From: Microcaldota archaeon
GTDB lineage: Archaea > Micrarchaeota > Micrarchaeia > Micrarchaeales > Micrarchaeaceae
Direction: 5' to 3'
Length of the DNA stretch: 63,801 bases
Assembly (NCBI GenBank): GCA_021801355.1
Contig: JAJYYB010000002.1
Coordinates: forward strand, 1 to 63,801
Numbering within the stretch: position 1 is the first letter of the stretch; each line of letters begins with the position of its first letter. Shown in pieces: positions 41,987 through 59,012 of this stretch. The translations under genes were made by a program, and so were the position numbers. The notes under the pieces were generated by a model. It was not told the origin of the DNA. It made no database searches and saw only the letters and a program-made list of their open reading frames with translations.

Positions 41987-42072
41987 AATATACCACGCCG
42001 GTTCTGCCGGCAAGTGTGCATAAATCGCAGCCAGGCAGAAAAAATAAAATCGAAGTGATTAAATCAGAAAAG

Positions 42073-42083: not shown

Positions 42084-42148
42084 CTATGTATATAAGATAA
42101 CACATAATTATTTAAGGGTTTTATCGCTTAGAATTAAACGTGATTCTG

Positions 42149-42580
42149 ATGGGAAATACAAAGGACAAGTTGTTTGCAAAGCTGAACGTCATCTCTATGC
42201 ATGCAAGCGCAATACACAAGTCGTACATGGTGCTGATGCTTCTCTCACTAGTTTCAGTAATGTACGCCCAGTTACCACCTCAAGGCACAGCTGAATATAA
42301 CGCCATGTCAGCGCTTTGCTCTGTATATAATCCTATAGTAGGTATAATATTCATACTTGCACTGGTTCTGATAGTGCTCGGAGGCGCACTTTTCGCAGGG
42401 TCTAACATGCTTCCTGCTCAAACAAAAGGCCAAATACAGAGCTACGGCATGTCAATGATAATAGGCGGCGTTATAGGCATAGTAATATACCTGATCGCAC
42501 CATTTATGATAGGCGTGCTAGGGGGCACAGCGGCTTCTACCCAGATAGGTTACTGCAGCCAATTTGCAACTACTGCATGA
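42149..42580 (+). CDS. VirB2/TrbC-like pilin candidate
   Basis: This 143-residue protein has a long basic start, a signal-like hydrophobic segment ending SVMYAQ (about residue 45), then a mature part of about 95 residues. The mature part holds two membrane helices, IVGIIFILALVLIVLGGALF and MSMIIGGVIGIVIYLIAPFM, joined by a short polar loop (AGSNMLPAQTKGQIQSYG). Cleavable signal plus two-helix hairpin with a Gly-rich turn is the layout of VirB2/TrbC pilins and of archaeal TedC-like pilins. Two Cys flank the hairpin. I start at ATG 42149, behind GTGAT; a GTG at 42140 is also in frame. It stands first in the putative secretion locus. The call rests on topology, not on a search. Confidence 0.55.
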   Translation: MGNTKDKLFAKLNVISMHASAIHKSYMVLMLLSLVSVMYAQLPPQGTAEYNAMSALCSVYNPIVGIIFILALVLIVLGGALFAGSNMLPAQTKGQIQSYGMSMIIGGVIGIVIYLIAPFMIGVLGGTAASTQIGYCSQFATTA

Positions 42581-43065
42581 TAGCTAACTAGCTAAATAAG
42601 GGGTCTTTCAATAGACGCAGTAGCAACGCCGTATGTCTATTAAGTATCACCTGTACACAATAAACCAATCACCAAAATCATACATTTTGGCCTTCCAGGT
42701 TCATATACCAAGTCAGAATCACAGTGAAATCGTTTACATATTTAGAGGTGTGCTCTGCACATGACTAGAATATTAAGGAATAAGATGAGACAATAGCTAA
42801 TAGTAAGGTTCAACTGAGTGAGCATGGTTAGTCAAGGCAGTTACCATGTCTTATCAAATCCATTCAAGTTGACTACTCGTTTTTGATTCATTGTAATAAA
42901 TCGCAACTATCGAGATACAGATATTATTTTTTCTGTGCGACTAAACACACCATTGCTTTTAGATTACAGTATCATTCTGTGCAGTAATGAAAATTATTTA
43001 CAAACAATACATATGAACAGCTATTTATTTTTTGTCATTCAAGAATACTAAGCCACAGTGTTTGC
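42581..43065. other. 485-base AT-rich intergenic stretch
   Basis: No gene is seen here. It follows the pilin-like gene and contains AGCTAACTAGCT (near 42583), a short palindrome, and T-rich runs near 43020-43033. The latter may end pilin transcription or hold a second TATA box (CTATTTATTTTT) for the downstream genes. A strongly expressed pilin with its own terminator would fit. Confidence 0.4.
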
Positions 43066-43824
43066 ATGGCAGACGTAATAACCAACGCGCTTGAGACCTA
43101 CACCAAGCACGCGCAGTTGCTTCTCATCTCATCGATTTCGTTCGTTATAGCCATATTGATACCTATTTTCGCTGCTTTTCCAACCTACACTGCAATGGGT
43201 GGCATATACCTTAGGACTGCAAGCATATTTTCCAACCTAACAGTTCTGAACACTGCAGTGATTGTCGTTTCTGTGTTCTTTTCTCTCCTATTCATAAGCT
43301 TCGCCATGGTGGCAATAAACATAATAGTAAAGCACAGCAGGACCTATGCGAAGATAAGGCAGGAGGTGTTCAGGGGGCTTGAGAAGTATACGAGCAGGGT
43401 CTTCGTTGTGCTGCTCATATTAGAGACAATAATAATACTTGCAAATGCGCTCAGTTTCGCCGTAACCAACTCAACACTATGGTCCGGCGCGTTGACCGCC
43501 ATAGTGGGCCTGATAATATCGCCGTTCTTCTTCTACGCTCCTGCCTCAATAATAATAGATGAGAAAAACACGCCAAGGGCCATGGTCGCCAGCTTCAGGT
43601 TCTTCTTCAAGCGCTTCGACTACGTGATTCTCTGGCTTGCGATAAGCATAGTGCTTATAACGGTGTTCGACTTCGTTTTTGTTGCAATAGGGAATGCAGC
43701 ACCGACCATCGCCTACCTACTGCAGATAGTGGAGCTCATCATAGTCACTGTAATACTGCTTCCTTTCCTGATAGTGCTGCAAAGCGAATCGTACATGAAG
43801 CGTTTCGCCATGCTGAAACACTAA
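43066..43824 (+). CDS. six-TM membrane protein, unknown
   Basis: This 252-residue protein has about six membrane segments in two groups of three (around residues 18-38, 58-88, 110-132, 138-165, 190-215 and 220-240). The long middle loop is basic (KHSRTYAKIRQEVFRGLEKYTS). The repeated pattern resembles the DUF975/GlpQ-type membrane domain (AMVASFRFFFKRFDYVILWLA), seen in many archaeal polytopic proteins of unknown role. It lies between the pilin-like gene and the six VirB6-like paralogues, in the same direction. It may belong to the locus or be a bystander. Confidence 0.6.
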   Translation: MADVITNALETYTKHAQLLLISSISFVIAILIPIFAAFPTYTAMGGIYLRTASIFSNLTVLNTAVIVVSVFFSLLFISFAMVAINIIVKHSRTYAKIRQEVFRGLEKYTSRVFVVLLILETIIILANALSFAVTNSTLWSGALTAIVGLIISPFFFYAPASIIIDEKNTPRAMVASFRFFFKRFDYVILWLAISIVLITVFDFVFVAIGNAAPTIAYLLQIVELIIVTVILLPFLIVLQSESYMKRFAMLKH

Positions 43825-43855
43825 CCTTATAATACTTTTTTACGTCTATCTTACC

Positions 43856-45160
43856 ATGTTAAAAGCAGCCGCATTTCGCATGCGCTTCATAACGATCTTG
43901 GTATTAATTTTTGCCTTATTCCAGTTCATTAATTCCTCCAGCGCCCAGTCACCTTTCGGGTCTGTGAACTGCATCATCACCGGCACGAGCATTCCTGTGG
44001 GGAGCTGCATAGAGTCAGCGATACCGCTCTGGGCAATCGGTATTATGCTCTCATTCGCGCTGATAGGGCTTAGCTACATGCTCGGCGAGATCTTCCAGCT
44101 CAGCGCCCTTAAGGGCTGGTACAGGTCAGAGCTCTGGGAATCAACGAAGACCATGATGCTTGTGGCCGTGATCTTTTCAGTTCTGGTGATATTCAGCTCC
44201 ATAGCTTCATCGCTTGCCGGTACTGGAAGCGCACCTGCTTCTCTTGGCACTACCGGCCAGATATCTCAGAACCTCGGCGGACTATACGCTGTGGCTGGCA
44301 ACTACCTAACGGTAGCATCGCAAAATGCCACGAACTCCATGCTCACGCTATTCGGCGCAGCGTCACAGATAGACTTCTTGAAAAGCTTCCGAATCAGCGT
44401 CTGGTTCCCAATCCCTACGCTGATAGGGCCTGAGACAATAGCGTTCCATTTCGGCGCCGACACCCCGATATTCATAAGCAACCTTATAGACGCAGGACCA
44501 AATTCGTCATCGCTCCTCAGTAACGCTGCGACATTGGTGGTCTTGCCCACACTGATAATGCTGCAGTCGCTCTCCAACCTCTTCTATGACATAGTTGCCT
44601 TGGGCTTCGGCCTCTTTATTCCGCTTGGATTAGTATTCAGGGCAATACCATTCCTCAGGGGTTTCGGCGGCACATTCATCGCTATAGGTCTAACGCTCTC
44701 ATTGGTGCTTCCGATGATTTTCGTCACGGTCAACATACCTGTAAGCGATCTTGTCCTTGGGCAGGGCGTCTACTGCACCTCCGGCAGCCAATCGGTATGT
44801 TCAGCCATAGCCGCGGCGTCAGGTTCAAGCTCTGGATCCTCATGCAATACGGCTTACTCACAATACGGCGCCATACTGGACGCAATACTAGGGTTCCTGG
44901 GCTGCATTTCATCAAACATATCATCGACGTTATCATCCGGATCGGCCTTCTCTACGGGCTACAATGTAGCTAGCGCCACGTTCTCGGAAACGTCAATATA
45001 CCCTATAGCCGACCTTGTTACTTCAATAGTACTGAACTCGGTACTGCAATTCATATTGCTCATAGTTGATTTCATTATAGGTTATACAATAGCAAAGGCA
45101 ATAGCGCAGCAGCTCGGCGGCACGATAAGGCTCGGCTTCGGAAAGATGAGGATGGCATAA
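43856..45160 (+). CDS. VirB6/TrbL-like polytopic membrane protein, paralogue 1
   Basis: This 434-residue protein has a signal-like N-terminus (TILVLIFALFQFINSSSAQ) and about seven further membrane segments. The first inner segment is followed by a cytoplasmic stretch with conserved acidic residues (YMLGEIFQLSALKGWYRSELW). Around residue 260 is the shared signature LVFRAIPFLRGFGGTFIAIG followed by a TM ending in Pro. The last TM has LIVDFIIGYTIAKAIAQQLGG. The same three blocks occur in the next five genes. A late Ser-rich extracytoplasmic loop carries Cys. Alternative start ATG 43880. VirB6/TrbL assignment is by topology and context. Confidence 0.6.
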   Translation: MLKAAAFRMRFITILVLIFALFQFINSSSAQSPFGSVNCIITGTSIPVGSCIESAIPLWAIGIMLSFALIGLSYMLGEIFQLSALKGWYRSELWESTKTMMLVAVIFSVLVIFSSIASSLAGTGSAPASLGTTGQISQNLGGLYAVAGNYLTVASQNATNSMLTLFGAASQIDFLKSFRISVWFPIPTLIGPETIAFHFGADTPIFISNLIDAGPNSSSLLSNAATLVVLPTLIMLQSLSNLFYDIVALGFGLFIPLGLVFRAIPFLRGFGGTFIAIGLTLSLVLPMIFVTVNIPVSDLVLGQGVYCTSGSQSVCSAIAAASGSSSGSSCNTAYSQYGAILDAILGFLGCISSNISSTLSSGSAFSTGYNVASATFSETSIYPIADLVTSIVLNSVLQFILLIVDFIIGYTIAKAIAQQLGGTIRLGFGKMRMA

Positions 45161-45174
45161 ATACGGCAGATTAT

Positions 45175-46452
45175 ATGCAAACGCAATCCAACAAATGCAA
45201 GTTCCTCGTACGCTTGCTAGCCGTGCTCTCAATATTCATACTTGTGGCGCTGCCTTCGACGGCATATGGCGCCCCAACATCGCTAACATCAGATGTCTAC
45301 AACACCGCCTGGATACCAATAAACCTGCTTGTTATAACAGTGAGCTTCGCCATCATAGCGCTAATTTACACCCTATCGAACGTGCTTCCCAGGGACATGA
45401 GGGCCAAGCTCCACTCGCTTGTCATGACAGAGATAAACCAGAACCTGATAAGCGTTCTCATACTGATTATACTCTTCTCGGCTACTGTTATAGTGGGCCA
45501 ATTCTCCGCATCGCTGCCGCTGACTGGTCAGTATGCCTGCAATCTGGAAAGCTCTAGTTGCAACCCGTTCATAATAGCTGATGCATACGTTGACACACTG
45601 ACATTTGTTACCGGTATCAACCTGCTCAACCAGATATACAGCAATTCGATAAGCTACGCTATAAATGCGAGGATTTGGAGCGGGGTCGGGCAGAGCATAC
45701 CTAGCTCTATAGTACCTTCAATAGCCTCACTACTGCAGCTGAAGTCCATAAGCCTGCCATTCATCCAGATAACTCCTGTGTTCGGAGGCGACCTCGGCAT
45801 CTCATACGCCATAATCAGCGACCTCCTTGTTGGGATATTCACGCCGCTGCTCATGGTGACATTGGGTACCATGTTCATACAGTACATAATGATATCCGTC
45901 ATAGAATTCTCTGCATTCTCCATAGTATTGCCTATAGCGCTTATGATGCGCTCCTTCGCGTTCACCGGAGCCGGGCTTAGGACCGCGGCAAACTCGGTTC
46001 TTGCTGTAGCAATAGCAGCCTACCTGATCTACCCGACAATGGTCGCGTTCAATCCAAGCATAATATCATGGATATTCACCTCATGCCAATCCACAACAAC
46101 TGCTTCTGGAGGGTGGTGCAACCCTACATACAAGTACCTTAACACTGCTTACACTCTACCAGACATAACGGTCTCAACTTTTCTGTCGCAGAGTTCAACC
46201 CAGGTCATTTCTGGGGGGCCTTCGCTGACGACATTGGGCATAGGCCAACTGAGCTCGGTGCTAGCGGCAGCGGATCCTTTCTCAGTCACACAAACACTGT
46301 TCACTATCTCGAACAACGTCGCACAATTCATGTTCACTTCAGTAATGCTGTTCGCTCTTGACCTCACCGTAACCCTCGGTTTCGGCGTTGGTCTTGCAAA
46401 GGCGCTCACTGGTGGGCTCGACGGCGTTGCGTCGTTCTGGAGCAACGTATAG
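45175..46452 (+). CDS. VirB6/TrbL-like polytopic membrane protein, paralogue 2
   Basis: This 425-residue protein repeats the plan of its upstream neighbour: signal-like start (LLAVLSIFILVALPSTAYGA), then TM, then a cytoplasmic block LSNVLPRDMRAKLHSLVMTE. The signature is more diverged, MMRSFAFTGAGLRTAANS (about residue 258), followed by a TM ending LIYP. An extracytoplasmic loop with two Cys (CQSTTTASGGWC) and the last TM with ALDLTVTLGFGVGLAKALTGG complete it. The start lies 15 bases after the previous stop. Low sequence identity but the same order of blocks argues for an old duplication. Confidence 0.6.
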   Translation: MQTQSNKCKFLVRLLAVLSIFILVALPSTAYGAPTSLTSDVYNTAWIPINLLVITVSFAIIALIYTLSNVLPRDMRAKLHSLVMTEINQNLISVLILIILFSATVIVGQFSASLPLTGQYACNLESSSCNPFIIADAYVDTLTFVTGINLLNQIYSNSISYAINARIWSGVGQSIPSSIVPSIASLLQLKSISLPFIQITPVFGGDLGISYAIISDLLVGIFTPLLMVTLGTMFIQYIMISVIEFSAFSIVLPIALMMRSFAFTGAGLRTAANSVLAVAIAAYLIYPTMVAFNPSIISWIFTSCQSTTTASGGWCNPTYKYLNTAYTLPDITVSTFLSQSSTQVISGGPSLTTLGIGQLSSVLAAADPFSVTQTLFTISNNVAQFMFTSVMLFALDLTVTLGFGVGLAKALTGGLDGVASFWSNV

Positions 46453-46462
46453 GTGTTGGTTT

Positions 46463-48031
46463 ATGCTTCCGCTATCAAACTTGGTGCTTCAGGTAACCGG
46501 CACATCAGCCATATCGTCGTGTTCAGGGGCCACCTCCGCTCTGGGCCCGGCAAGTGTATGCACCGCACAGACAAGCCTGGCCACATTCATAATATTCGCC
46601 ATCATCATCGACGCGGTGATAATCGGCGTATGGTTCATGATAGGCTATGTGCTCAACGACCAGCGCATCAAGGCAACTGCAAGGGGAGAGTTCCTGCAGC
46701 TGATAGGCACAGGCATATTGGTGGCTGTCGTAGTAGGTGTGCTTGTATTCTTCGCCTCGCTGTATATATCATCATTGGGTTCGTCCGCGCTGAATCCACA
46801 GGCTATGTTCTACACTTGTAACAATATAGCCGCGGGCTCCAGGCTGACGCTCTTTTCCGGTAACTTCCTCGCCGGCACCTCGTACAGCACTGCCAGCAGC
46901 CAGAATGTGCTTGCAGCAAACGGCAATCCAAGCAACTTATACGAGCCTTACAACCTGCTCGCCGGTACTACCACATTCCCCGGTCTTTGTGCCATGGTGG
47001 CAAGCCCTTCGTCATTCACAAACCAGATAGACTATCCTCTCGCTACTACCGCAGTCCTAATAGCGAATCTCACAAACCAGACTGCAGGCAATCTAAATGG
47101 CCTTTTTGAACTCGATACATACTTAGGTTTCCTGGACAGCTTCACGCCATTCGTCGAAGAGTGCGATTCCGCAGGCCTCGCATGCTTGATACCTGGATTG
47201 GGTGTGATAGAATTCAATGGGAAGGTGTCATTCCAGCCTTATGCCGGCTATGATCTAATATTCCAGTCGTACGCGCCGCTTGGCGACCTCCTCTCGCTCG
47301 CTTTCGAGTCGTACATTGCTCAGTTCGTTTTCATAATCGCAGCGCTTTTCATATGGCCTTATCTGCTGTTCATAGGGATAGTGCTTAGGGCCACTCCTTT
47401 CACCAGGGCCATAGGCGGCCTTTTCATAGCGATAGCCATAGGTGTTGTGATATTCCTACCCGTAATATACGGACTCGAATACACCAACCTGTGTTCTGGG
47501 GTGCCATACAACCTGAATGTCGGCCAGCCGCCACCCAGTTGCAACGGTTACAGCAGCACTCCGACAAGCGCATACGCGTTCAACTCGTTCTCCTACGGGT
47601 TCAACGGCATAACGCAGATACCTGCCAACTCTCCGATCACAGGCAATCAATACGTAATAAACTTCTTCGTCCTGCCGAACGTAACGTACATAGGCACCCA
47701 TAACAATTGCTGGCCCAACGGAGGCATATTCAGCTCAGAGCTAAATAACATATTAGCAGCCATGGTGCCTTTCAGCGAAATAACTAGCGCAATCTTTATA
47801 GCCTCGGGCAACGGAGTGCCGAGCGGCGTGCCTGTTCTGAGCACTCAGGCCTGCCAGCCAACTGACGCCAGGATGTTGCTCTACCAGCTCTTCGACGCCT
47901 ACGGGGTAGTTGGCGTGAGCGCTTACTTCATGCCGATAATAGATTTGATGGTGGTCATATCCGGGATAATAGGCCTTTCCGGCATGCTCGGCGGCGACAC
48001 CGAGCTCGCAGGCCTGGCTAAGCTCGTTTAG
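46463..48031 (+). CDS. VirB6/TrbL-like polytopic membrane protein, paralogue 3 (longest)
   Basis: This 522-residue paralogue starts at ATG 46463, behind AGGTGT; the frame extends to 46388 inside the previous gene, but that is unlikely. There is no classical signal; it opens with a short extracytoplasmic segment containing Cys (SSCSGA, SVCTAQ). The cytoplasmic block reads LNDQRIKATARGEFLQLIG and the signature is IVLRATPFTRAIGGLFIAIA (about residue 306), followed by a TM ending LPVIYG. Two extracytoplasmic inserts make it longer than the others. The last TM ends GLSGMLGGDTELAGLAKLV. Confidence 0.6.
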   Translation: MLPLSNLVLQVTGTSAISSCSGATSALGPASVCTAQTSLATFIIFAIIIDAVIIGVWFMIGYVLNDQRIKATARGEFLQLIGTGILVAVVVGVLVFFASLYISSLGSSALNPQAMFYTCNNIAAGSRLTLFSGNFLAGTSYSTASSQNVLAANGNPSNLYEPYNLLAGTTTFPGLCAMVASPSSFTNQIDYPLATTAVLIANLTNQTAGNLNGLFELDTYLGFLDSFTPFVEECDSAGLACLIPGLGVIEFNGKVSFQPYAGYDLIFQSYAPLGDLLSLAFESYIAQFVFIIAALFIWPYLLFIGIVLRATPFTRAIGGLFIAIAIGVVIFLPVIYGLEYTNLCSGVPYNLNVGQPPPSCNGYSSTPTSAYAFNSFSYGFNGITQIPANSPITGNQYVINFFVLPNVTYIGTHNNCWPNGGIFSSELNNILAAMVPFSEITSAIFIASGNGVPSGVPVLSTQACQPTDARMLLYQLFDAYGVVGVSAYFMPIIDLMVVISGIIGLSGMLGGDTELAGLAKLV

Positions 48032-48039
48032 GTATTAGC

Positions 48040-49257
48040 ATGTCAATGAAACAAAACGCATTGCCAAGATTCGCATTGATAATGCTAGCGCTGCTCATGC
48101 TGACCAATGTGGCATACGCCCAAACGTCGCAGGGGACCACGTCCAGCCAGGTCTGCCAGAGCATAATACAGGCCTACACGACCTCTACAGTGCCGCAGTC
48201 GCAGGGCTCGTCTTCATCATCAGGCGCATCAATAACTGTAAACATAGCCAGCTTCACATCCCTGATAGTGATATCGCTGCTGATAATAAGCCTGATGGGC
48301 GCGCTGATAGCTATAATATACGCGGTTGGCCAGGCATTCGGTATTGATAGGCTTACCAGGTTCGCCAAGGCCGAGGTCGGCGAGATAGCCATAACGCTCC
48401 TGATAATATTCATATTCCTCGGCACGCTCTCCTTGACTGGCACTTTCACAAATTCGAGCAGTCTCTTCGCAGCTGCAGGCAGTTCGTTCAATACGAACAT
48501 ATTCGTCGATGATTGCAATGCTGTCATGGCGTCTTCATATTCGCTAATATCGCCAGAACTCTCTTTCGTCATCGATAGCGGCCTGATTAACATAGCGTCT
48601 GGAACCGTCATATCAACGCAGCTTTCGGATTTCGGCGTTTCGTTCAATCCGTTCGCAGGCGATGAGTTCCTCGGCACTATATTGCAGACGCTGATAAGCA
48701 TAGGCGGGGTGATGATAGGGCTGCTTTTCGGCATAGGCGTATTCCTTGCGGTGATATACGGCATGTTCCCGATGTTCCTCTTCGCAGGAATAGTGCTGAG
48801 GACGCTCCCTTTCACCAGGCCGGCAGGCGGTGCGTTCCTCGGGCTTTTCGTAGGGTTCTACATATTCCTGCCATTGATACTCCATTTCCTGCTGTTCTAC
48901 AACAGCACGTTCCTCACGCAGAGCCAGAACGGCCTTTGCGGCCCGAGCTCGTGCAACACAGGTGACTTAATAACACAATTCGTGGGCTACATGAGCGGAG
49001 GGGCGACCACAGCACTGACTGGTAATTCAATCACAAGCGGTCTAAACGGTGCCTCGACCTTCGGGACGAGCACGATATCATTGCTGAACGGCTCCATCAT
49101 ACAGGCTTTCGTAAGCCTCATAATAGAGCCGGTATTCTACACGATGCTCGCTTTTATACTTTCATTGATAATGGCGTATGATTTTATGGAAGCCGTTGGC
49201 GACCTTCTCGGTGCGCCTAGCCTTAAGTCGAGCGCGATGCTCAAGAACGTGATATGA
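48040..49257 (+). CDS. VirB6/TrbL-like polytopic membrane protein, paralogue 4
   Basis: This 405-residue paralogue has a signal peptide (LPRFALIMLALLMLTNVAYAQ), then TM1 and the cytoplasmic block FGIDRLTRFAKAEVGEIAI. The signature is IVLRTLPFTRPAGGAFLGLF (about residue 250), followed by a TM ending FLPLIL. A Cys-containing loop (GLCGPSSCNTG) precedes the last TM, which reads LIMAYDFMEAVGDLLGAPS. The start is eight bases after the previous stop. It is the clearest representative of the conserved R-x2-P-F-T-R-x2-GG signature. Confidence 0.62.
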   Translation: MSMKQNALPRFALIMLALLMLTNVAYAQTSQGTTSSQVCQSIIQAYTTSTVPQSQGSSSSSGASITVNIASFTSLIVISLLIISLMGALIAIIYAVGQAFGIDRLTRFAKAEVGEIAITLLIIFIFLGTLSLTGTFTNSSSLFAAAGSSFNTNIFVDDCNAVMASSYSLISPELSFVIDSGLINIASGTVISTQLSDFGVSFNPFAGDEFLGTILQTLISIGGVMIGLLFGIGVFLAVIYGMFPMFLFAGIVLRTLPFTRPAGGAFLGLFVGFYIFLPLILHFLLFYNSTFLTQSQNGLCGPSSCNTGDLITQFVGYMSGGATTALTGNSITSGLNGASTFGTSTISLLNGSIIQAFVSLIIEPVFYTMLAFILSLIMAYDFMEAVGDLLGAPSLKSSAMLKNVI

Positions 49258-49258
49258 C

Positions 49259-50386
49259 ATGAAGCCGCAATCGCTCGCAATTGTATGCGTCGCCTCTCTA
49301 CTCATGCTAGCTTGCTCGACCAATGCGGCTTCGCTTGACGAGTCATTTTCGCATTACTACAATCCAGGTGCTCTTTTCACCGCATCAGCGCAATCCTATA
49401 CACTGCAATCCTATCTGCCAGTCGAGATAACAAGCTGGGAAGGCCTTGCAGTGATAGCGATACTGCTTGTTATAGCAGTGGCTTCCATAATCTATCAGCT
49501 AAGCGGTGTGACAGGCAGCAGCAATGCACGTGCATGGTCAAAGATGCAGGTGTATGAAGGCCTCGTTTCGCTACTTTTGATAGGGATATTCGGTACTTTC
49601 TCCTACCTCTTCTTCCTGAATCCTCAGGGCGCATTCCAGAGCGCAAACTTACTGCCTAACAGCTGTGGTCCTGTAAACGCGCCCAATGTCAACAACATAT
49701 ATAACTTGTCTACATGCGACCTGAGCTTCTTCCTGCTAAATGCAACGGGCTATTTCGAGGACCTGTACTACGTCGGTTTCATAGCAGGCGCAGCAACCCC
49801 TGGAGTCATACTAAATTTCACCCCCCTCAATCCGGTGCTGGGCCAGTCCGGGGTATTCGTACAGTTGGGCGATCCGAGCCTGCTTCCCTCTTCGATGGAA
49901 TCGCTGCTTACGACGGCTGATTCAGGCCTATTGTCTTTCATACTACTGAACCAGGTGCAGATGATCCTTCTTTCAGGGTCGCTACTGTTCCTGTCGTTCT
50001 TCATGGTGCTGGGTCTGGTAGCCAGGAGCTTCGGCTTCACAAGGACGTTCGGAGGCTCGATGATAGCTTTCGGCCTTGGCCTAGGCATGGTATACCCGCT
50101 TCTTGTCAGCATGAGCTACGGCTTCATAGACGTGCAACTGCAGCAGACATCTATAGCCTCGATAGGCTCCTCGCTGGCAAGCACAATATTCTCGATAGTG
50201 GGTAGCACGGTAACGAATTCGCCCCCTGCGCTCTCTACGGCCGTGCTCGAGACCGGCTATCTGCTGGTTGGGTTGTTGATAATACCATTGCTCAACTTTG
50301 CCATACTGGACGCGTTCATAGTCGACTTCTCTAAGGCGATCGGCGAGCGCATAGACTTCATGTCGATGATAGGCAGCGTGATATGA
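49259..50386 (+). CDS. VirB6/TrbL-like polytopic membrane protein, paralogue 5
   Basis: This 375-residue paralogue begins with a signal-like segment (LAIVCVASLLMLACSTNAAS); the Cys in LACS could make it a lipoprotein. TM1 is followed by LSGVTGSSNARAWSKMQVYE. The signature is LVARSFGFTRTFGGSMIAFG (about residue 250), followed by a TM ending YPLLV. The last TM has LDAFIVDFSKAIGERIDF. The start codon is one base after the previous stop, so translation is coupled. Confidence 0.6.
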   Translation: MKPQSLAIVCVASLLMLACSTNAASLDESFSHYYNPGALFTASAQSYTLQSYLPVEITSWEGLAVIAILLVIAVASIIYQLSGVTGSSNARAWSKMQVYEGLVSLLLIGIFGTFSYLFFLNPQGAFQSANLLPNSCGPVNAPNVNNIYNLSTCDLSFFLLNATGYFEDLYYVGFIAGAATPGVILNFTPLNPVLGQSGVFVQLGDPSLLPSSMESLLTTADSGLLSFILLNQVQMILLSGSLLFLSFFMVLGLVARSFGFTRTFGGSMIAFGLGLGMVYPLLVSMSYGFIDVQLQQTSIASIGSSLASTIFSIVGSTVTNSPPALSTAVLETGYLLVGLLIIPLLNFAILDAFIVDFSKAIGERIDFMSMIGSVI

Positions 50387-50387
50387 T

Positions 50388-51578: not shown

Positions 51579-51677
51579 GCATGTGCAGTGACAATCGAAA
51601 AATCTTAGTGACACTACAGCAAAGTTAATAAAGATTAAACCACAAAATAGAATGTTTGGCATACAAGGCAGGTCCTC

Positions 51678-52508
51678 ATGCAAACTAAAACTTTGGTTCT
51701 GTTAGCTTTTTTGGGCGTTTCTGTAGTTCTGCTAGCATTTGCAGCTGCGCTTCCGTCCGGCGGCCTTCTCGACATACTGAAGCTGATACTTCTGGTCTTG
51801 GCTCTGCTCTTCGATATCCTGGCTTTCGCATCAAGGTTCTACACATATCTTATGGTGCCAGCGCTACAGCAGAGGAGCAAGGACATAATTCTGAGCAACG
51901 ACGAGGCTTACACAATATCGCCTTCAGCGGATTCAACTATACACAAGGAGGGCAGCGAATTCGTCGCCACTGTTTACGTCAGCATACCACTATATAGGTC
52001 CGCTACAGAAATGAGCGACGAGGAGAAGCTTGACTTTACGAGGCAGGTGAGCAAATTGGTGGGCGTGAGCGGCGATCCTGTGCGCTTCACTTCCGAGCTT
52101 TACGTGATGAATAAGGACGCTTACATACAGACGCTGAAGGACACGATAAATTCCCTTGAGAACGATGTGGTCGCCCTGACGAGCAAGAAGAGCCAGCCCA
52201 AGGAGCTGGATCGCGCGAAGGGCAAGCTCGCCATGTGGCATAACATGCTGGACAACATAGAAAAGGTGCAGTCGCTCGAGCTCGTGACCTACGCCGCAGT
52301 ATCGGCTAAAGGTACGAAGGAGTTCGAGGCGGTAAGTATAGCGCAGCAGAGGGCGAGGGACATAATGTCCGGCATAGGTTCGATATTCGGGGTCACTCCG
52401 AGCATAGTCACCGGACAGGAGCTGCTCAAGTTCATCGAGCCAGAGTACCTTATACCTTTCTCCACGATAAGCGAGCAGCTGAGCAGGAACATACAGCAGG
52501 TGATTTGA
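51678..52508 (+). CDS. membrane hairpin plus soluble domain, VirB3/VirB4-N-like (first of two)
   Basis: This 276-residue protein has two N-terminal membrane helices (TLVLLAFLGVSVVLLAFAAA and LLDILKLILLVLALLFDIL), then a cytoplasmic domain of about 210 residues. The domain mixes strands (EFVATVYVSIPLY) with long helices (YIQTLKDTINSLENDVVAL), then ELVTYAAVSAKG and ends near PEYLIPFST. A two-TM hairpin followed by such an alpha/beta domain is the layout of PrgI/VirB3 fused to the N-terminal domain of VirB4. Here the ATPase domain is a separate gene two positions downstream. The call is structural inference. The next gene starts directly at its stop. Confidence 0.5.
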   Translation: MQTKTLVLLAFLGVSVVLLAFAAALPSGGLLDILKLILLVLALLFDILAFASRFYTYLMVPALQQRSKDIILSNDEAYTISPSADSTIHKEGSEFVATVYVSIPLYRSATEMSDEEKLDFTRQVSKLVGVSGDPVRFTSELYVMNKDAYIQTLKDTINSLENDVVALTSKKSQPKELDRAKGKLAMWHNMLDNIEKVQSLELVTYAAVSAKGTKEFEAVSIAQQRARDIMSGIGSIFGVTPSIVTGQELLKFIEPEYLIPFSTISEQLSRNIQQVI

Positions 52509-53342
52509 TTGGATGAAGAAGCGATAATGTACCTCCTGTTAACGTTCATGGTAGCTCTCGCAGTGGTCCTAATATTGCCATCGTTCGGGAAGGGCATAGT
52601 TTCGATACTGGCCCTAATACTCGCGCTTGTCACAGTAGCCATAATAGTGATGCTTAACTGGGCAGACTTCATAATATTCCCGCTTGTGACCAGCCTGCTC
52701 GGCATGACCTTCCAGCCGGCCAGGAACTACAAGATAACAAAGAACCAGGATGCGATAGTGAAGAACGTCAACGGGCTGTACTACGCCACCGGCTATGTGA
52801 CTGCCAACCTCCTTCCTTACGTTTTCAAGCTCGAGTCGAGGCAGGAAGAGGAGAATCAGAAGATGTTGCAGGCCCCTGATACGTGGGAGCGCGCGATAAT
52901 GAACATAGGTTTCCCGTTCAAGTTCCACGTGCTTTCCTCGGGCCTTGACGTGCAGGACGTGAGGGACGAGCTTGAGGGCAAGAGGTCATACCAGGAGTTC
53001 CAGCTCTCCAGGCTGCAGCAGGGCTCCAACGCAAGCGAGACCGCAGTCACTGAAATAAGGAGGAAGATAAGCGTGCTGCAGACTAAGATCGACAGGATAT
53101 CGCAGGGAGAGAAGCCAATAGCCACAATAATGTACTTCGAGACTACTGCGGTTGACGTCTCGGAGAAGGCTGCGGTAGACAGGCTGTCGGCGCAGATAAA
53201 GAGCCTGCAGGTTTCGTTCAGCTCGCTAGACGTGCAGTTGGCCAAAGTGGTAGGCCGTGAACTTTACACGCTGTTCAAGTTCAATTTCTCGCTTCCAACG
53301 ACTTATACAGAGATATCAGGTTATTTCGACAGGCAGTCATGA
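52509..53342 (+). CDS. membrane hairpin plus soluble domain, VirB3/VirB4-N-like (second of two)
   Basis: This 277-residue protein has the same architecture as its upstream neighbour: two membrane helices (TFMVALAVVLILPSF and ILALILALVTVAIIVML), a short amphipathic segment, then an alpha/beta domain. The domain contains IVKNVNGLYYATGYVT, FPFKFHVLSSGLDVQDVRDE and a long coiled region (TEIRRKISVLQTKIDRIS), ending VGRELYTLFKFNFSLP. The segment with an MNIGFPFKFHV strand resembles VirB4/TraC N-domains. The TTG start at 52509 follows the previous stop without a gap; ATG 52527 is the alternative. It precedes the ATPase gene by 27 bases. Confidence 0.5.
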   Translation: MDEEAIMYLLLTFMVALAVVLILPSFGKGIVSILALILALVTVAIIVMLNWADFIIFPLVTSLLGMTFQPARNYKITKNQDAIVKNVNGLYYATGYVTANLLPYVFKLESRQEEENQKMLQAPDTWERAIMNIGFPFKFHVLSSGLDVQDVRDELEGKRSYQEFQLSRLQQGSNASETAVTEIRRKISVLQTKIDRISQGEKPIATIMYFETTAVDVSEKAAVDRLSAQIKSLQVSFSSLDVQLAKVVGRELYTLFKFNFSLPTTYTEISGYFDRQS

Positions 53343-53369
53343 GCAATAAAATGTTTTAGGGTTTGTAAA

Positions 53370-54881
53370 ATGACACTACTGAAGCTACAGAGCATCATGA
53401 GCAATGAGGTCGCCAAGCGGGCCTTCTTCTCCAGGCCACCCGAGCCCCCGGTAAGTGCGCTAATGACCGACCCTTTCAAGTCGCTCTACATAGGCACCAC
53501 TAAGATATTCAGGGTGCCATTCACATGGTCGTTCTTCAACCTGACCAACCCGCACATAGCAGTCGTCGGTATAACCGGTTCTGGAAAAAGCTATTTCGTC
53601 AAGACCCTTCTCATAAGGGCGAGCTACGTTTGGAACACCAACGCCGTTATAATAGACTGGGCCGGGGAGTACAAGGCATGGGTAAAGCAGAGCGGCGGTG
53701 TGGTCGTTGCATTAGCCAAGGGCGACTACCTGAACATAATGGATCTCTCCGGTATGAAGCCGCTCGACAGGACAAAGCAGATAATGAACTCGCTTGACAT
53801 ACTCACCGACATAAGCCAATTCCCAGAGCAGAAAAGGCTTACAGAGGAGGCGATAGAGCAGTCCTATGCAAACTTCGGTTTCATAGTCTCTGAGAGGCCG
53901 CTCGACAACAGGGATGCGCCAACGTTTAAGGACGTCATAGCGCTGCTCGAGGAGAAGCTGCAGGAAGGCACTTACGAATACCCTGCCGAGCTCGAGAACA
54001 CGATATACAGGCTTCGCCAGTTCGCGCGCGAAGGCGAGGACTATTTCGCCAGGAAGAGCACCATAGACCTCGGCAAGCTTTCCGAATCAGGCCTAGTCGA
54101 CATAGACCTATCGGGGCTCCCCGACGAGAAGTTCAGGGCTCTCGCCGGCCTATTCATACTGCAGACGCTGAAGGAACGCATGAGGAGCGAGGGCTGGAGC
54201 GAAAGCAAGGGGCTCAAGGCCATAGTCGTCCTGGACGAGGCATGGAAGATAGCAAGCGATGAGAAGAGCGACGCAATAATGATAGTCAGGGAGGGAAGGA
54301 AGTACCAGTTCGGCCTCATAGTAGCCTCGCAGAACCCGACCGACATAAACGAGGCAATATTCTCCAACGTCGGCACAACTTTCATACTAAGGATAAAGTT
54401 CGAAAAGTTTCTCAACTACTTACAGGGCTCGATGAATTTCTCAAGCTTCATAAGGAACGAGATAGGCAAGTTCGGGGTGGGCCAGGCCGCGGTAGAGATG
54501 GCTTTTCAGAGCGCGATAAGGTTCCCTGAGACATTCATACTAGAGAGGATACACGGCGAGGAGCCGCTTTACGTCTACACGATAGATATGACTGACGTAC
54601 TCACGCAGGCTGAGGTGGCTGCAGGAGTGATGCAGCGTGACTACCAGTTCGAGAGGGATGAGCTGAAGGATAGGCTGGTCGACTACAACGTCAGCAGCGA
54701 GGGCGTTAACGCTACTCTTTCATCATTCGACAGCAGTGGCAGGAGCATGAAGATGCTCGACATGCTGCGCATAGTTAAGGACACTGGCGGGATAACGAAC
54801 GAGAACCTCGTCTCGTTCCTAAAGAGCCTTAGCATAGATGACATACTCATAACGAGGATACTTGGCTCATTAGGTGTCTAG
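53370..54881 (+). CDS. VirB4/HerA-family ATPase of the secretion-like locus
   Basis: This 503-residue hexameric-type ATPase has Walker A VVGITGSGKSYFVKTL (about residues 65-80), Walker B AIVVLDEAWKIAS (about 285-297) and the sensor/finger segment REGRKYQFGLIVASQNPTDI (about 308-328). The N-terminal 60 residues form a short strand-rich entry, much less than a full VirB4 N-domain, which fits its supply by the two upstream genes. The C-terminus is helical and ends DDILITRILGSLGV. It would power pilus assembly or DNA movement. It is related to the broken ATPase at the left window edge. Strongest anchor for the T4SS-like call; a HerA-type translocase is the alternative. Confidence 0.85.
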   Translation: MTLLKLQSIMSNEVAKRAFFSRPPEPPVSALMTDPFKSLYIGTTKIFRVPFTWSFFNLTNPHIAVVGITGSGKSYFVKTLLIRASYVWNTNAVIIDWAGEYKAWVKQSGGVVVALAKGDYLNIMDLSGMKPLDRTKQIMNSLDILTDISQFPEQKRLTEEAIEQSYANFGFIVSERPLDNRDAPTFKDVIALLEEKLQEGTYEYPAELENTIYRLRQFAREGEDYFARKSTIDLGKLSESGLVDIDLSGLPDEKFRALAGLFILQTLKERMRSEGWSESKGLKAIVVLDEAWKIASDEKSDAIMIVREGRKYQFGLIVASQNPTDINEAIFSNVGTTFILRIKFEKFLNYLQGSMNFSSFIRNEIGKFGVGQAAVEMAFQSAIRFPETFILERIHGEEPLYVYTIDMTDVLTQAEVAAGVMQRDYQFERDELKDRLVDYNVSSEGVNATLSSFDSSGRSMKMLDMLRIVKDTGGITNENLVSFLKSLSIDDILITRILGSLGV

Positions 54882-54884
54882 CTG

Positions 54885-55193
54885 ATGGCTAACGAAGAGA
54901 CGTTCACGATAAGCCGCGCAGAACTGCGGCGCATACTGACAAATTTCGGCGTCACGGAAAAGAACCTGACGGCTCTTTTCAACTCCATGGAGAAGGCGCA
55001 CAGGCACATAAACATAATAGCATTCGTAAGCATGCTCGAGAAGGCAGGCATGGATCGCGACGAGACCGGCAACATATTCAGGAGGCTTAACATGGACGAC
55101 GTAACGATAAAGCGTGCGTTTGATATGGTGGACGAGGAGAAGATCAATTCAGAGACAGGCAGGCTTTACGATGCCTCTGTTGACATAAGTTGA
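54885..55193 (+). CDS. small helical protein, possible ATPase adaptor
   Basis: This 102-residue soluble, charged helical protein reads FVSMLEKAGMDRDETGNIF then RRLNMDDVTIKRAFDMVDEE. The C-terminus of the upstream ATPase has a similar run (LKSLSIDDILITRIL), so both may share one small helical module. The start lies three bases after the ATPase stop. No family is recognised. A role as adaptor or docking subunit of the ATPase is inference. Confidence 0.6.
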   Translation: MANEETFTISRAELRRILTNFGVTEKNLTALFNSMEKAHRHINIIAFVSMLEKAGMDRDETGNIFRRLNMDDVTIKRAFDMVDEEKINSETGRLYDASVDIS

Positions 55194-55197
55194 TGCT

Positions 55198-55608
55198 ATG
55201 GGAAAGAAGGGCGCCAAGGCTTCACCAGCTGCGTATGGTTCGAGATGTATAATCTGCGGCCTTGAAAAGGACGGCTTAGAGGTCAAGGAAGATTACGTAA
55301 TAAATGCCATGAGATACTTCAAGAAGAATATCACCAAGAACGCAAAGAACTACAGGCTTGTAGTGTGCAAGGAATGCTTCCCGAAATACGACAAGGCAAG
55401 GAACAGCTACGTGAAGAAGCAGATATCGTATGTCGCAATAGCCGTGGCTTTTGCTGTCTTGCTCATAATAGTCGCTGCTGGAAATTTGGGTGCAATAGTC
55501 TACGGCCTTGCAATCATAATATTCATGTACCTGCTTTCGCTGCTTAGCTACACGCCAGGAGTTAAAATGCCTCCTAATGTAAAGCCGCCGAAGGTTGGAC
55601 GCAAATAA
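55198..55608 (+). CDS. zinc-ribbon membrane protein
   Basis: This 136-residue protein has a zinc-binding N-terminal part with CIICGLEKDG (about residue 18) and CKECFPKYDK (about residue 56). Two close membrane helices follow (ISYVAIAVAFAVLLIIVAA and GAIVYGLAIIIFMYLLSLL), and the tail is basic and Pro-rich. The zinc knuckle faces the cytoplasm. It starts four bases after the preceding stop, so it is in the same operon. Similar Zn-ribbon plus two-TM proteins occur widely in archaea without known function. Confidence 0.65.
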   Translation: MGKKGAKASPAAYGSRCIICGLEKDGLEVKEDYVINAMRYFKKNITKNAKNYRLVVCKECFPKYDKARNSYVKKQISYVAIAVAFAVLLIIVAAGNLGAIVYGLAIIIFMYLLSLLSYTPGVKMPPNVKPPKVGRK

Positions 55609-55695
55609 AGCCGCAAAAAGAGACTATCAAAAGTGCTGTGTTGCAAATGTATTTATAGAATTAAGGTCGATAAGTAATCAGTGCCTCTGTGATCA

Positions 55696-56433
55696 GTGAT
55701 ACAAGTGCCTGATGAAAACGTTGTTCTTGAACCAAAAGTCGACGCTATAACTATTGGAGGCTCTCTGCAAGGCTCCTTCGAATCGATGGCAACAAGGCTT
55801 TCCCCGCTGCAGGTTTTCTCCATCAAGTCTACCCCGGACAGACTCGTGGTACTACGGGTCGAGAGCAGGGACATGCAGAAGAATCCATTCCTGTTCTTCA
55901 TGATGACATTCGAGAAGGACAAGATAACTGTCGAGTATTCCATAGTGCAGGACACAAGCTTCAAGCTGAGGCGCCTTTTCGTGCTCAGGAACCTCCTCAG
56001 CGTAATCTCACTCAATCTGGACATGTACCAGCCAAACCCAGTCGAGCTTTTCCAGCAGCTCAGCTCATCTATAGACGACGCGCTCAACTCACTTGATCAG
56101 AGCTACAGCTCCCTCGTTAACAATTACGATTATATATTCAACGAGTACAGGGAGCTGAAGAAGCTCGGCGCCCAGCTTATGGCCTCGAACAAGAGCATGA
56201 CCGTGCAGGCTTCGCAGTTGGCATCGGAGAACGAAGCGCTCAAGGCAAGGCTGAAGTCGCTTGAAGCATACTCCGACGAATCCCTGATGTCGATGATTGA
56301 GGACTGGATACAGGCCCATGACAACACGATAGACATAGACGAGTTCGCCAAGAACTACAAGATAGTCGCGCCACGCGTCGAGCAGATGCTCAACAAGATG
56401 GTCTCGCTTGGCTATATAGAGTTCAGGGGCTAG
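55696..56433 (+). CDS. coiled-coil protein with C-terminal winged helix
   Basis: This 245-residue soluble protein has an N-terminal beta-rich domain of about 110 residues (FSIKSTPDRLVVLRVESRD; KDKITVEYSIVQD), a coiled coil from about residue 115 to 195 (NEYRELKKLGAQLMASNKS), and a C-terminal winged helix (IDIDEFAKNYKIVAPRVEQM, then GYIEFRG). The start is GTG 55696 or GTG 55705; no ATG fits. An AT-rich stretch (ATGTATTTATAGAATTAAG, near 55650) may hold its own promoter. No family is recognised. It could regulate or organise the locus. Confidence 0.6.
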   Translation: MIQVPDENVVLEPKVDAITIGGSLQGSFESMATRLSPLQVFSIKSTPDRLVVLRVESRDMQKNPFLFFMMTFEKDKITVEYSIVQDTSFKLRRLFVLRNLLSVISLNLDMYQPNPVELFQQLSSSIDDALNSLDQSYSSLVNNYDYIFNEYRELKKLGAQLMASNKSMTVQASQLASENEALKARLKSLEAYSDESLMSMIEDWIQAHDNTIDIDEFAKNYKIVAPRVEQMLNKMVSLGYIEFRG

Positions 56434-56440
56434 TGGTCTC

Positions 56441-56590
56441 ATGAAGTACAACGTACGCGTCAGGAAGCGCGCAAACAATATGAAGGTATATACGATAGTA
56501 AAGAAGACAGGTGCGCAGGATAACTTCATAACCAAGCTGTTCATGAAGGTGTTCGCTAAGGGCAGCAAGGGTAGCCATTCAAACCAGTGA
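56441..56590 (+). CDS. 49-residue basic protein
   Basis: A short frame starts at ATG 56441 (MKYNVRVRKRANNMKVYTIV) and ends at TGA 56588-56590. It is strongly basic (about a quarter Lys and Arg) with an amphipathic middle (NFITKLFMKVFAKG). It sits seven bases after the preceding stop and 25 bases before the next gene, which supports it as a real gene. Function unknown; nucleic-acid binding or a membrane-surface role is possible. Confidence 0.5.
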   Translation: MKYNVRVRKRANNMKVYTIVKKTGAQDNFITKLFMKVFAKGSKGSHSNQ

Positions 56591-56615
56591 CCTGGATAGT
56601 AGCGGTGTTCAACAA

Positions 56616-59012
56616 ATGCAGGGCGGCACTAAAAAGAAAATAGTCATAGCAACATTGGTACTTGTAGTGCTTCTAGGTGCGCTGGCCTTCTATCTTAACG
56701 CAGCCCTATCCTCATTCAGGTCACAAATAAGCCAGCCGACCGGTCCGCCAGCAGTGCCATCAATATCTGCACAGCTACTAAACCAGAGCTTCATGGCCTA
56801 TAGTTCAGGATCTACGCTCTTGCCCTACGCCCTAATAAAAGTAGCATCCAGGAACGCCTCGACAATAAACGTGTATGCCAGCATATTCAAGAACCCTGTG
56901 CCGCAGCAGATATACATATTCAACATGACTAACGAATGCTACCAGTGCGGTAACATTACCGCTTTCACCGATTCTATAGATACTAGCCTTATAAAGTACG
57001 GCTTGATAAAGAACTCCGGCGTTGTGCTTTCAGTTTCAGGCTCCGAACTGGCTAATATATCTAATTACTCAATACTAATAGTGCCAAACGGCTACATCCC
57101 AGAGGCTTTCATGAGCAATTACAGCAACACGCAGAATTCCACAATCCAATACCTCATGAAAAAAGGCGTAAGCATCATATACGTCGGTGCAGACTTCTCT
57201 AACATGCTGGAGCCAGGATCCATAATAGTCCCTTCAGGCACGCTTCCTTACTTCCTGCGCACCCTGCCGTTCACCAAGCTTAACCAGAGCACAATAGGTT
57301 CATTCGGTAACTTCTATTTCAACAAGACGCAGTTCACCTTTGCCTCGGGCCAGTCCTATGGCTACCTATCATACGAGAACGTGCTGAATGGCTCTATTGT
57401 TGCATTCTCCAACTATGGGACCTCATGGTCAAACTCTACTGATGAGGGCAGGGACATAGCAAAGGCCATATCATCGCTGTTCTGGTTGCCGCGATACGCA
57501 AGCGGGACCCAATCGTTCAGCCTGATTAACTCAACCAAGTTCAATGGCGACATAGGCATACCACTCTACACGAGCTCCCTGCATTACACATATCCGGAAT
57601 CGCTGGCGCTAGGCAAGACATACGCACGTATAGCGCTTTACACCAACGCAAGCTACAATATAACTGCTCCGAACAGCGCCTACACATACGTCACATACAC
57701 ACCGCAATTCGGCATAAACGGTTCGGTATCAATACCATCATCCATTATACCGGGGCAACGCACGGCTTTCGACCTAGACATATTCACTCATTCCAACACC
57801 TCCATATCTCTGCTTCCGCATCTGCAAATATACGACCAGAACATGACCCCGGTTGAGGGAATCGCGCTCCCCTCGATACAGCAAGCGTCCGGCAACTTCA
57901 CGTTCCTTAAATACCTAACGCTAGAACTGCCTCCCGGAGTTTACATAGCTGCTCTAGACAACTTCACGGACCACCCATACGCGTACGGCCTATTCGACGT
58001 AAACCTCTCAGTAACGCTTCTGTCAGCCAACTTCTCTTCCAACCAGTTCACGTTCTACGTTTCTTCTGCCGGACAAGCCCTCAGCGGCGTTAACTACTCG
58101 GTGCATCTTTCGAACCAGCAATCAAAGTATGCATTCCCAGTAGAAAACGGCACGCTCACCAACGGCACTATTGTTTACACTGTACCAAGCGGCGCCCCGG
58201 CGCTGTATTACAGCTCCAACATAACTGTAAATATGCTGTCAAGCAGGTTCAGCTTCTTCGCTTTCAACCAGCCGCCCCCATTCCCGATAAATACGCAGGA
58301 CATAGAGATACTTGTAGTTTTCGCCGTCCTTGGCCTGATGGTCGTATTTGTCAGGGCGCCTAACAGGGACGAGTTCTACATAGACGTGCCTCACATGCCG
58401 CCCAAGAACAAGACGCAGATAAAAATCAAGGCGTCCGAGGTGACTGGTATATTCGACAAGCTAAACCTCTACTATCACTGGAACCACATGCCGCTTTCGA
58501 AGAGCGAGATAAAGCTTGCGATCTCGAAGTACATAAACTTCAGCGGCATGCCGGTCAACCTAACGTTCAGCAATGTCGAGAAGATCCTTGACCAACTCGT
58601 AGCGTCCGGCAAGCTCGTTACCGTAGACGGCCTCTACGCTCCCCAGTTATGGGTCCTGCATGGCCACGACATAGAGTACCTTGCTACTTTCAAGAAGCTC
58701 AGGGTGTTCCTGGTCTCGCACGGTTACCTTTTCACCGAAATAGACGCGAGCAACGTCGCTGACATAGTGGCTACACAGCACGGCGAGCATGCCTACATAG
58801 TGATTTATTCGAAAACCAGCAGGTTCGCCAACATGCCCGTATTCCAGAACGCCAAGACATACCTTGCATTCCTAAACTCAGACCGCATTGATGAATTCAG
58901 GATGAACCTTTACAATGACAGCACTAACGAGGCGGAGATGCTCAAGCTCTACATGGCTTCAGGGACGGTGGAGCTCATCGATGCGGACAACCAGCAGCCG
59001 ATACTTACTTGA
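56616..59012 (+). CDS. large bitopic membrane protein with glycosylatable ectodomain and cytoplasmic winged helix
   Basis: This 798-residue protein has an N-terminal TM (IVIATLVLVVLLGALAFYL), an ectodomain of about 530 residues, a second TM at about 561-580 (IEILVVFAVLGLMVVFV) and a cytoplasmic tail of about 215 residues. The ectodomain is rich in Asn, Ser and Thr with many N-x-S/T sites; its first part looks Rossmann-like (ILIVPNGYIPEAF; GVSIIYVGADFSNML) and the later part beta-sandwich-like. The tail has a winged-helix-like segment (MPVNLTFSNVEKILDQLVAS) and an alpha/beta end with AYIVIYSKTSRF. It ends the secretion-like locus. Cell-contact or receptor role is inference. Confidence 0.65.
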   Translation: MQGGTKKKIVIATLVLVVLLGALAFYLNAALSSFRSQISQPTGPPAVPSISAQLLNQSFMAYSSGSTLLPYALIKVASRNASTINVYASIFKNPVPQQIYIFNMTNECYQCGNITAFTDSIDTSLIKYGLIKNSGVVLSVSGSELANISNYSILIVPNGYIPEAFMSNYSNTQNSTIQYLMKKGVSIIYVGADFSNMLEPGSIIVPSGTLPYFLRTLPFTKLNQSTIGSFGNFYFNKTQFTFASGQSYGYLSYENVLNGSIVAFSNYGTSWSNSTDEGRDIAKAISSLFWLPRYASGTQSFSLINSTKFNGDIGIPLYTSSLHYTYPESLALGKTYARIALYTNASYNITAPNSAYTYVTYTPQFGINGSVSIPSSIIPGQRTAFDLDIFTHSNTSISLLPHLQIYDQNMTPVEGIALPSIQQASGNFTFLKYLTLELPPGVYIAALDNFTDHPYAYGLFDVNLSVTLLSANFSSNQFTFYVSSAGQALSGVNYSVHLSNQQSKYAFPVENGTLTNGTIVYTVPSGAPALYYSSNITVNMLSSRFSFFAFNQPPPFPINTQDIEILVVFAVLGLMVVFVRAPNRDEFYIDVPHMPPKNKTQIKIKASEVTGIFDKLNLYYHWNHMPLSKSEIKLAISKYINFSGMPVNLTFSNVEKILDQLVASGKLVTVDGLYAPQLWVLHGHDIEYLATFKKLRVFLVSHGYLFTEIDASNVADIVATQHGEHAYIVIYSKTSRFANMPVFQNAKTYLAFLNSDRIDEFRMNLYNDSTNEAEMLKLYMASGTVELIDADNQQPILT

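Follow-up and report, generated by a model that had tools for sequence, protein, structure and literature searches.

The described systems closest to the locus reported here are Ced, found in Sulfolobales and Desulfurococcales (CedA, CedA1, CedB, CedD and CedE), and Ted, found in Thermoproteales. Like the present locus, both are chromosomal and domesticated, and both combine a VirB2-type pilin and an ATPase of the VirB4/HerA type with a VirB6-type polytopic protein, for which the locus has counterparts that resemble VirB6 in predicted structure. In the type IV secretion system (T4SS) of plasmid R388, VirB6 is the assembly platform of the pilus and stands above a hexameric VirB3/VirB4 motor (PMC9259494). 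A 2025 review of T4SSs gives conjugative plasmids and the known crenarchaeal and thermococcal cases as the archaeal systems (PMC12857230). We analyzed a window of 63,801 bases, contig C19 of a genome of 1.07 Mb (96% complete), and describe in it a locus of 15 consecutive open reading frames (ORFs) on the + strand of the chromosome of this member of Micrarchaeota (DPANN), from 42140 (or the ATG at 42149) to 59012. The locus probably encodes a machine of the T4SS superfamily that resembles Ced and Ted and is greatly elaborated in Micrarchaeota, with a VirB6-like platform of six subunits and a split motor. In the open-licence literature we found no description of the system; the T4SS-derived type is known, but a six-paralogue channel with a split motor was not found described there. 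A recent paper on Micrarchaeota genomics makes no mention of secretion, pili or VirB (PMC12892359), and an earlier paper on Mia14 reported type IV pili and Sec/Tat (PMC5498576).

The first-pass annotation of this DNA had described fifteen or so genes running in one direction with short spacing, comprising a pilin, six polytopic proteins, two membrane-hairpin proteins, a HerA/VirB4 ATPase and accessory proteins. The ORF listing bore out this arrangement, and the inventory proved right; we refer to the genes, in order, as pil, m2, t1 to t6, h1, h2, atp, sm, zn, cc and big. The intergenic gaps from m2 to zn are 0-99 bp and the two gaps at the 3' end are 87 and 182 bp, and 485 bp with no ORF inside separate the pilin gene from m2. 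Gene starts are uncertain, most of all that of the pilin (GTG at 42140, ATG at 42149 or TTG at 42170).

About 100 loci were fetched for comparison. Genes t1 (43856..45160), t2 (45175..46452), t3 (46469..48031, usually the longest), t4 (48040..49257), t5 (49259..50386) and t6 (50388..51578) encode polytopic proteins that are mutually paralogous according to profile cross-hits, with 5-7 transmembrane (TM) segments predicted for such proteins in relatives. Their core is nearly invariant at two arginines, a glycine and a proline (G..LR.F..TR..GG.LIA.....P). All 64 complete multi-gene t arrays (60 genomes, 12 families) contained six genes, and the window's own array is one more beside these. The remaining arrays were a further one of six genes close to the end of its locus, one of four genes truncated by a contig end, and t genes standing singly; complete arrays of two to five or of more than six t genes did not occur among all loci counted. 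The first-pass annotation had counted six polytopic proteins but had not noticed that this number is fixed, which is the strongest feature of the locus. A sensitive profile search for overlooked t members returned none, apart from pilin-sized matches and short fragments. The product of m2 (43066..43824), a conserved six-helix membrane protein with no Pfam family match, was considered as a seventh t subunit and rejected on a negative hhalign comparison with the t profiles.

The six genes are assigned to positions 1 to 6 as VirB6-like proteins by profile cross-hits and position clade (t1), by these and the array count (t2 to t5), and by an AlphaFold2 model (t6). In a tree built from 187 t proteins, 6 changes accounted for the position labels, the minimum being 5. 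Positions 2, 3, 5 and 6 each occupied one side of a branch; counted singly, positions 1 and 4 took 2 and 5 changes. Treating the single-gene type as a seventh label gave 7 changes against a shuffled mean of 123. From these label counts, all six positions most likely predate the split of the 12 families, and positions 1 to 6 are orthologous between arrays, with the six paralogues in a fixed order. Two complete arrays per genome occur in families f3, f5 and f6, so it is the whole array that duplicates as a unit. In four genomes (G003, G005, G008 and G043; loci L253-L260) the two complete six-gene arrays lie at separate places.

The single t genes belong to a short locus with the order pilin-t-h-atp, found in the A_DKE strain (L265), in ARM-1 (L264) and in G019 (L268), and with variations in L082, L084 and L087. 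Their products form a group of their own on the tree. In A_DKE and ARM-1 the minimal locus stands beside the six-gene system; it was not seen in the window genome. It resembles a homomeric precursor out of which the six-gene form could have grown, a direction that we infer on an unrooted tree.

Structures were predicted for two proteins, t6 and h2, both as monomers. When the t6 model (pLDDT 80) was compared with the Protein Data Bank (PDB) by Foldseek, the first two ranks were taken by R388 VirB6 (8rtd_L and 8rt9_F, probability 0.99 and 0.97), and the next entries reached at most 0.47. The polytopic proteins were thus not drawn to unrelated transporters, an outcome that the first-pass annotation had named as fatal to its proposal.

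The pil product (42140..42580) is a VirB2/CedA1-like protein with a signal peptide and two hydrophobic helices. By itself the window pilin matched PF18895 (T4SS_pilin) weakly (E=0.014-0.017), the signal being carried by the family: 25 of its 39 members matched PF18895 (best 2e-6) and 22 matched PF04956, TrbC/VirB2 (best 1e-7). In a PDB search with the pilin profile, the R388 pilin TrwL/VirB2 ranked first (E=1.4e-3), and among 344 plasmid ORFs TrwL again ranked first against the pilin, with a probability of 81 as compared to 6 for the next. These matches mark pil as a VirB2-type pilin of the T4SS superfamily. The pilin profile also weakly matched the N-terminal hairpin of the t proteins (43856-51578), several pilins at E of about 1e-4 and with an hhalign probability of 36, hinting at shared ancestry or at a common pilin-docking hairpin.

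The product of atp (53370..54881) is a motor ATPase of the VirB4/CedB/HerA superfamily that is missing its own N-terminal domain. Against NCBIfam it matched CedD (1e-21), CedB (1e-17), VirB4 of the CD1110 type (8e-16) and HerA (3e-15), in this order, and against Pfam it matched PF01935 (1e-17), AAA_10 (2e-14) and the TraG P-loop (8e-10). The Walker A motif GITGSGKS (67-74) and DEAWK (289-293) are conserved in 34 ATPase homologues. A VirB4-type motor is the most fitting assignment from these profiles. As CedD, CedB and VirB4 outranked HerA, a HerA repair helicase was rejected as the identity of the motor, and the match to HerA alone, which the first-pass annotation had named as a refutation, did not occur. 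The window genome encodes a separate HerA-like DUF87 protein on contig C12.

The alignment of atp to CedB starts at CedB residue 253, and the preceding part is missing from atp. Two paralogous genes (profile cross-hits) lie just upstream: h1 (51678..52508), encoding a membrane hairpin and a cytoplasmic domain, and h2 (52509..53342), encoding a VirB3-like membrane hairpin and a domain of the VirB4/CedB N-terminal type in trans. Foldseek ranked TrwK/VirB4 (7o42_E, probability 0.98) first for the h2 model (pLDDT 86), followed by chains of the R388 VirB3-VirB4 complex (0.91); the other top-ranking entries were weak. Nine of the 64 hairpin family members matched the CedB profile (best 2e-4), and one matched VirB4_plasma (2e-4). 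The match of the window h2 covers CedB 147-217, a stretch that atp is without; h and atp are therefore read as a split VirB3/VirB4, in which h2 would supply the VirB3 anchor and the VirB4 N-terminal domain, split off from the ATPase. Following atp, sm (54885..55193) encodes a stand-alone protein related to the C-terminal region of the ATPase, with reciprocal profile matches between sm and atp of 6e-13 and 2e-15. In one relative (G059, L088:2662-5840) the ATPase gene is interrupted directly before the Walker B sequence VLDEAWK by an in-frame intein some 500 amino acids long; the intein has a Hint-like start at C, LAGLIDADG-like motifs and an SN|C junction.

Orthologous loci with the same gene order were found in about 50 related genomes, contrary to the absence of conserved order that the first-pass annotation had put forward as grounds for abandoning its view. 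Of 295 genomes of the phylum, 248 had a match to the ATPase at E<=1e-20, as did 89 of the 96 high-quality ones, and with both observations the locus is far beyond chance. Families f1, f2 and f11 keep the order (pilin)-m2-t1..t6-h1-h2-atp-sm-zn-cc-big, with variable placement of the pilin. In other families a single hairpin gene replaces h1/h2, and h-atp-(sm)-zn-cc-big stay together with the t genes elsewhere. The best 80 of 331 matches in a genome scan carried Micrarchaeota titles, save a few labelled Marsarchaeota, which were taken as mislabelled. The nearest named relatives among the matches listed were Candidatus Micrarchaeota and Micrarchaeaceae, one of them the cultured Ca. Micrarchaeum sp. 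A_DKE; ARM-1 was listed as well.

Outside f1, f2 and f11 the array and the ATPase gene are mostly unlinked. Even so, of the 134 genomes of this class that lie outside the order of the window, 106 had both, 24 had neither and 2+2 were discordant, counts that ignore phylogenetic dependence and in which 'neither' assumes that unlisted genomes belong to the class. Families f10, f13, f15 and part of f17 had no array and no ATPase at E<=1e-20, with one weak exception, G110. Because they are inherited together though unlinked, the array and the motor appear to act together, and we take this as evidence for a common function.

Components akin to those of conjugation machines could also mean that the contig has captured a conjugative element or an integrated plasmid. 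This explanation is hardly credible, and we rejected it on the distribution and on the searches for mobility genes, viruses and plasmids. The system is near-universal with conserved order, and its divergence tracks kinship: ATPases from the genus are 82-90% identical, those of most genomes in the family 66-78%, and most orthologues beyond the family 47-61%. No relative of the ATPase occurred on 2.9 million viral contigs, and no plasmid match covered 80% of it. As the first-pass annotation had stated, relaxase and coupling protein are missing: the relaxase family PF03432 was found in 0 of 31 genomes (other relaxase families were not searched), and the coupling protein PF02534 was absent from the window genome, with marginal matches in 2 of the 31. 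As judged from these comparisons, the system is chromosomal, not mobile, and vertically inherited. In G110, which belongs to a family without the phylum-wide system, a different gene set (L272, on contig C19 of that genome) includes a distant VirB4-like ORF of 763 amino acids, a pilin-like gene and polytopic genes; this is possibly a true conjugative element.

Several results weigh against the assignment to the T4SS superfamily. The TM-scores of t6 against VirB6 were 0.28-0.38 (0.37-0.38 by target), below 0.5. A profile-profile comparison of the t family with ten plasmid VirB6 proteins gave no similarity, the scores equalling those of reversed controls; searches with single plasmid proteins were likewise negative, so homology to VirB6 at the sequence level was rejected. 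The polytopic proteins matched no NCBIfam model, CedA included. The first-pass claim of VirB6/TrbL-like proteins thus stood in structure and failed in sequence profiles, and the kinship is supported by the t6 model and the gene context rather than by sequence. The ATPase scored far below the curated cut-offs for CedB (64 bits vs 700), CedD (77 vs 600), VirB4 and two HerA models (51 vs 970 and 55 vs 800), and it is a distinct family for that reason. The phylogenetic dependence in the co-inheritance counts belongs here as well.

The lack of sequence similarity to VirB6 would suit a membrane complex unrelated to T4SSs. Such a complex would have drawn its ATPase from the HerA family and joined it to a new group of polytopic proteins; the likeness to pilin and VirB6 would then come from generic matches between helical hairpins. 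HerA structures do head the PDB sequence list for the ATPase, and the Foldseek E-values for h2 and t6 are above 0.001. However, four components independently found a T4SS partner (VirB2, the VirB3/VirB4 N-terminal part, the VirB4 motor and VirB6) in searches that spanned the whole of PDB, Pfam or NCBIfam, and the runners-up were scattered and weak. We therefore regard an unrelated complex as improbable; the searches with pilin, ATPase, h2 and t6 favor the T4SS-like reading, as proposed in the first-pass annotation.

In the machine that we propose, the VirB2-like pilin would be freed of its signal peptide and then polymerised into a pilus on the membrane platform. The platform would be a ring that holds one copy of each of six different VirB6-like subunits and that would have arisen by duplication from a homomeric ring. 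Below it would lie the split VirB4 motor, with h1/h2 as VirB3-like anchor and VirB4/CedB-type N-terminal domain, powered by the separate ATPase. The single hetero-hexamer, the pilus and the cargo are each inferred from genes. A closed ring is the simplest reading of the strict one-or-six rule, under which one gene would give a homomeric ring and six a specialised one. Six genes are no proof of one ring, and R388 VirB6 is pentameric (PMC9259494), so that a six-fold ring is not given. Since Rickettsia in turn has five divergent VirB6 copies, of undescribed arrangement (PMC2653234), six-fold symmetry is a real prediction and not a transfer from known systems.

The same facts would also fit six proteins that do not share a ring but act as alternative or stacked subunits, with separate pores or roles in tip or assembly and a number that is merely historical; large unique insertions at individual t positions point the same way. 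Historical copies would be expected to be lost at times, yet none of the 64 arrays has two to five or seven or more genes, and whole arrays rather than single genes duplicate, with six ancient positions. This arrangement is accordingly less likely than the single ring, although it keeps some weight.

As to cargo, single-stranded DNA imported from neighbours or from the host, as in Ced, is our tentative first choice, favored because the nearest families of the motor are DNA importers, and exchange with the host is the second. In the latter, a T4SS-derived machine would link the cell to an archaeal host and serve as a conduit for effectors, metabolites or other small molecules and proteins, not DNA. 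Such a role has been proposed for the T4SS of the bacterial epibiont S. epibionticum, which is essential and has pilins but, as here, no coupling protein or relaxase (PMC10633639). Cryo-electron tomography of ARM-1, which has both the locus of the ATPase and an array of six t genes (L066 and L263), showed thin filaments, a 21-nm docking barrel in the envelope and nanotubes between ARM-1 and its host (PMC11329633). The nanotubes, however, were traced to the host cell (PMC11329633), and the closest ATPase families point to DNA. The system also occurs in nearly the whole class, including lineages proposed to be host-independent (PMC12892359), and no effector genes were recognised. We consider such a conduit rather unlikely, a pilus mainly for attachment less likely still, and conjugation very unlikely. 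The first-pass annotation had ranked conjugation below uptake, effector delivery and host contact; the missing relaxase and coupling protein and the chromosomal distribution agree with this, and the present evidence leaves the choice among the other three undecided. The widest reading combines an obligate VirB6-like hetero-hexamer older than most of the radiation of the phylum with a six-fold split VirB4 motor into a phylum-wide conduit, through which symbionts would draw host DNA or macromolecules, with a minimal, ancestral-type system of a single VirB6 alongside. Taken jointly, these parts are conceivable but fall somewhat short of an even chance.

Further genes follow the motor. The zn product (55198..55608) is a zinc-ribbon protein (CxxC...CxxC, cysteines at 17, 20, 57 and 60) with a C-terminal membrane hairpin, kept with the ATPase across families. 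The product of cc (55696..56433, conserved in 74 loci) is a coiled-coil protein with a winged-helix-like segment at its C-terminus, which weakly resembles the winged helix of archaeal ESCRT-III (2xvc, E=0.005). That of big (56616..59012, conserved in 70 loci) has about 800 amino acids, with two TM segments, a large, presumably extracellular part and a cytoplasmic tail. Family searches with zn and big found no known family, and cc gave no usable match. No locus protein matched a VirB8-type protein in Pfam; big or cc could be analogues of VirB8. In L253, L255, L258, L266 and L271 the array is directly followed by a gene for a protein of 1,300-1,640 amino acids with 1-2 TM segments. The giant proteins behind arrays in other families had no Pfam domain; such a protein is a candidate surface or tip component. 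The genes flanking the window locus run in the opposite direction: upstream and divergent (38481-42013) are a carbamoyltransferase with Carbam_trans N and C domains and a GT39/PMT-like membrane glycosyltransferase, and downstream is topoisomerase VI B.

The machine is a strong candidate for the exchange of DNA or other molecules between micrarchaeal cells and their neighbours. For work on the exchange between DPANN archaea and their hosts, and on the proteins behind the filaments and bridges seen by microscopy, a conserved gene set is now to hand in the cultured Ca. Micrarchaeum harzensis A_DKE and in ARM-1. A homo-oligomer may here have become a hetero-oligomer in a secretion channel, and the one-or-six rule makes the case unusually clean; the symmetry that it predicts is six-fold, against the five-fold one of the best-studied bacterial VirB6.

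Among the known systems, the giant VirB4/TraG-domain SPEARE proteins of nanohaloarchaea are also DPANN T4SS-type ATPases, proposed for host interaction (PMC10266531); there, however, a giant Ig-repeat protein is fused to the ATPase, and no six-gene polytopic array has been reported. The rvh system of Rickettsiales shares a divergent array of VirB6-type paralogues kept despite genome reduction (PMC2653234), but it is bacterial, has four or five copies that are sometimes lost, and includes VirB8-B11 and VirD4. The T4SSs of Patescibacteria (S. epibionticum and relatives) have pilins and are near-universal and chromosomal in a lineage that is likewise ultrasmall and host-dependent; in S. epibionticum coupling protein and relaxase are absent (PMC10633639). 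Retention of a chromosomal T4SS with no recognisable relaxase or coupling protein is thereby seen in ultrasmall archaea as well as in ultrasmall Patescibacteria. The patescibacterial machines are related to monoderm conjugation systems, with a full VirB4, PrgI/VirB3, VirB6 and VirB8, and have not been described as six-VirB6 systems. R388 (VirB/Trw) provides structural matches to t6 (TrwI/VirB6) and h2 (TrwK/VirB4 and the VirB3-VirB4 complex) and a match to the pilin (TrwL), whereas its VirB6 is a homopentamer; in our locus six paralogues were found and no VirB5, VirB7-B11, VirD4 or relaxase was recognised. With Ced, the locus shares a motor whose N-terminal part is split between proteins, as in CedB/CedD (PMC11868833). 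Ced imports DNA, which is the cargo tentatively proposed here. Where Ced has CedA (and CedE), the micrarchaeal system has six polytopic paralogues in fixed order, a VirB4-type N-terminal domain on a separate membrane-hairpin protein, and the conserved accessory genes zn, cc, big, sm and m2.

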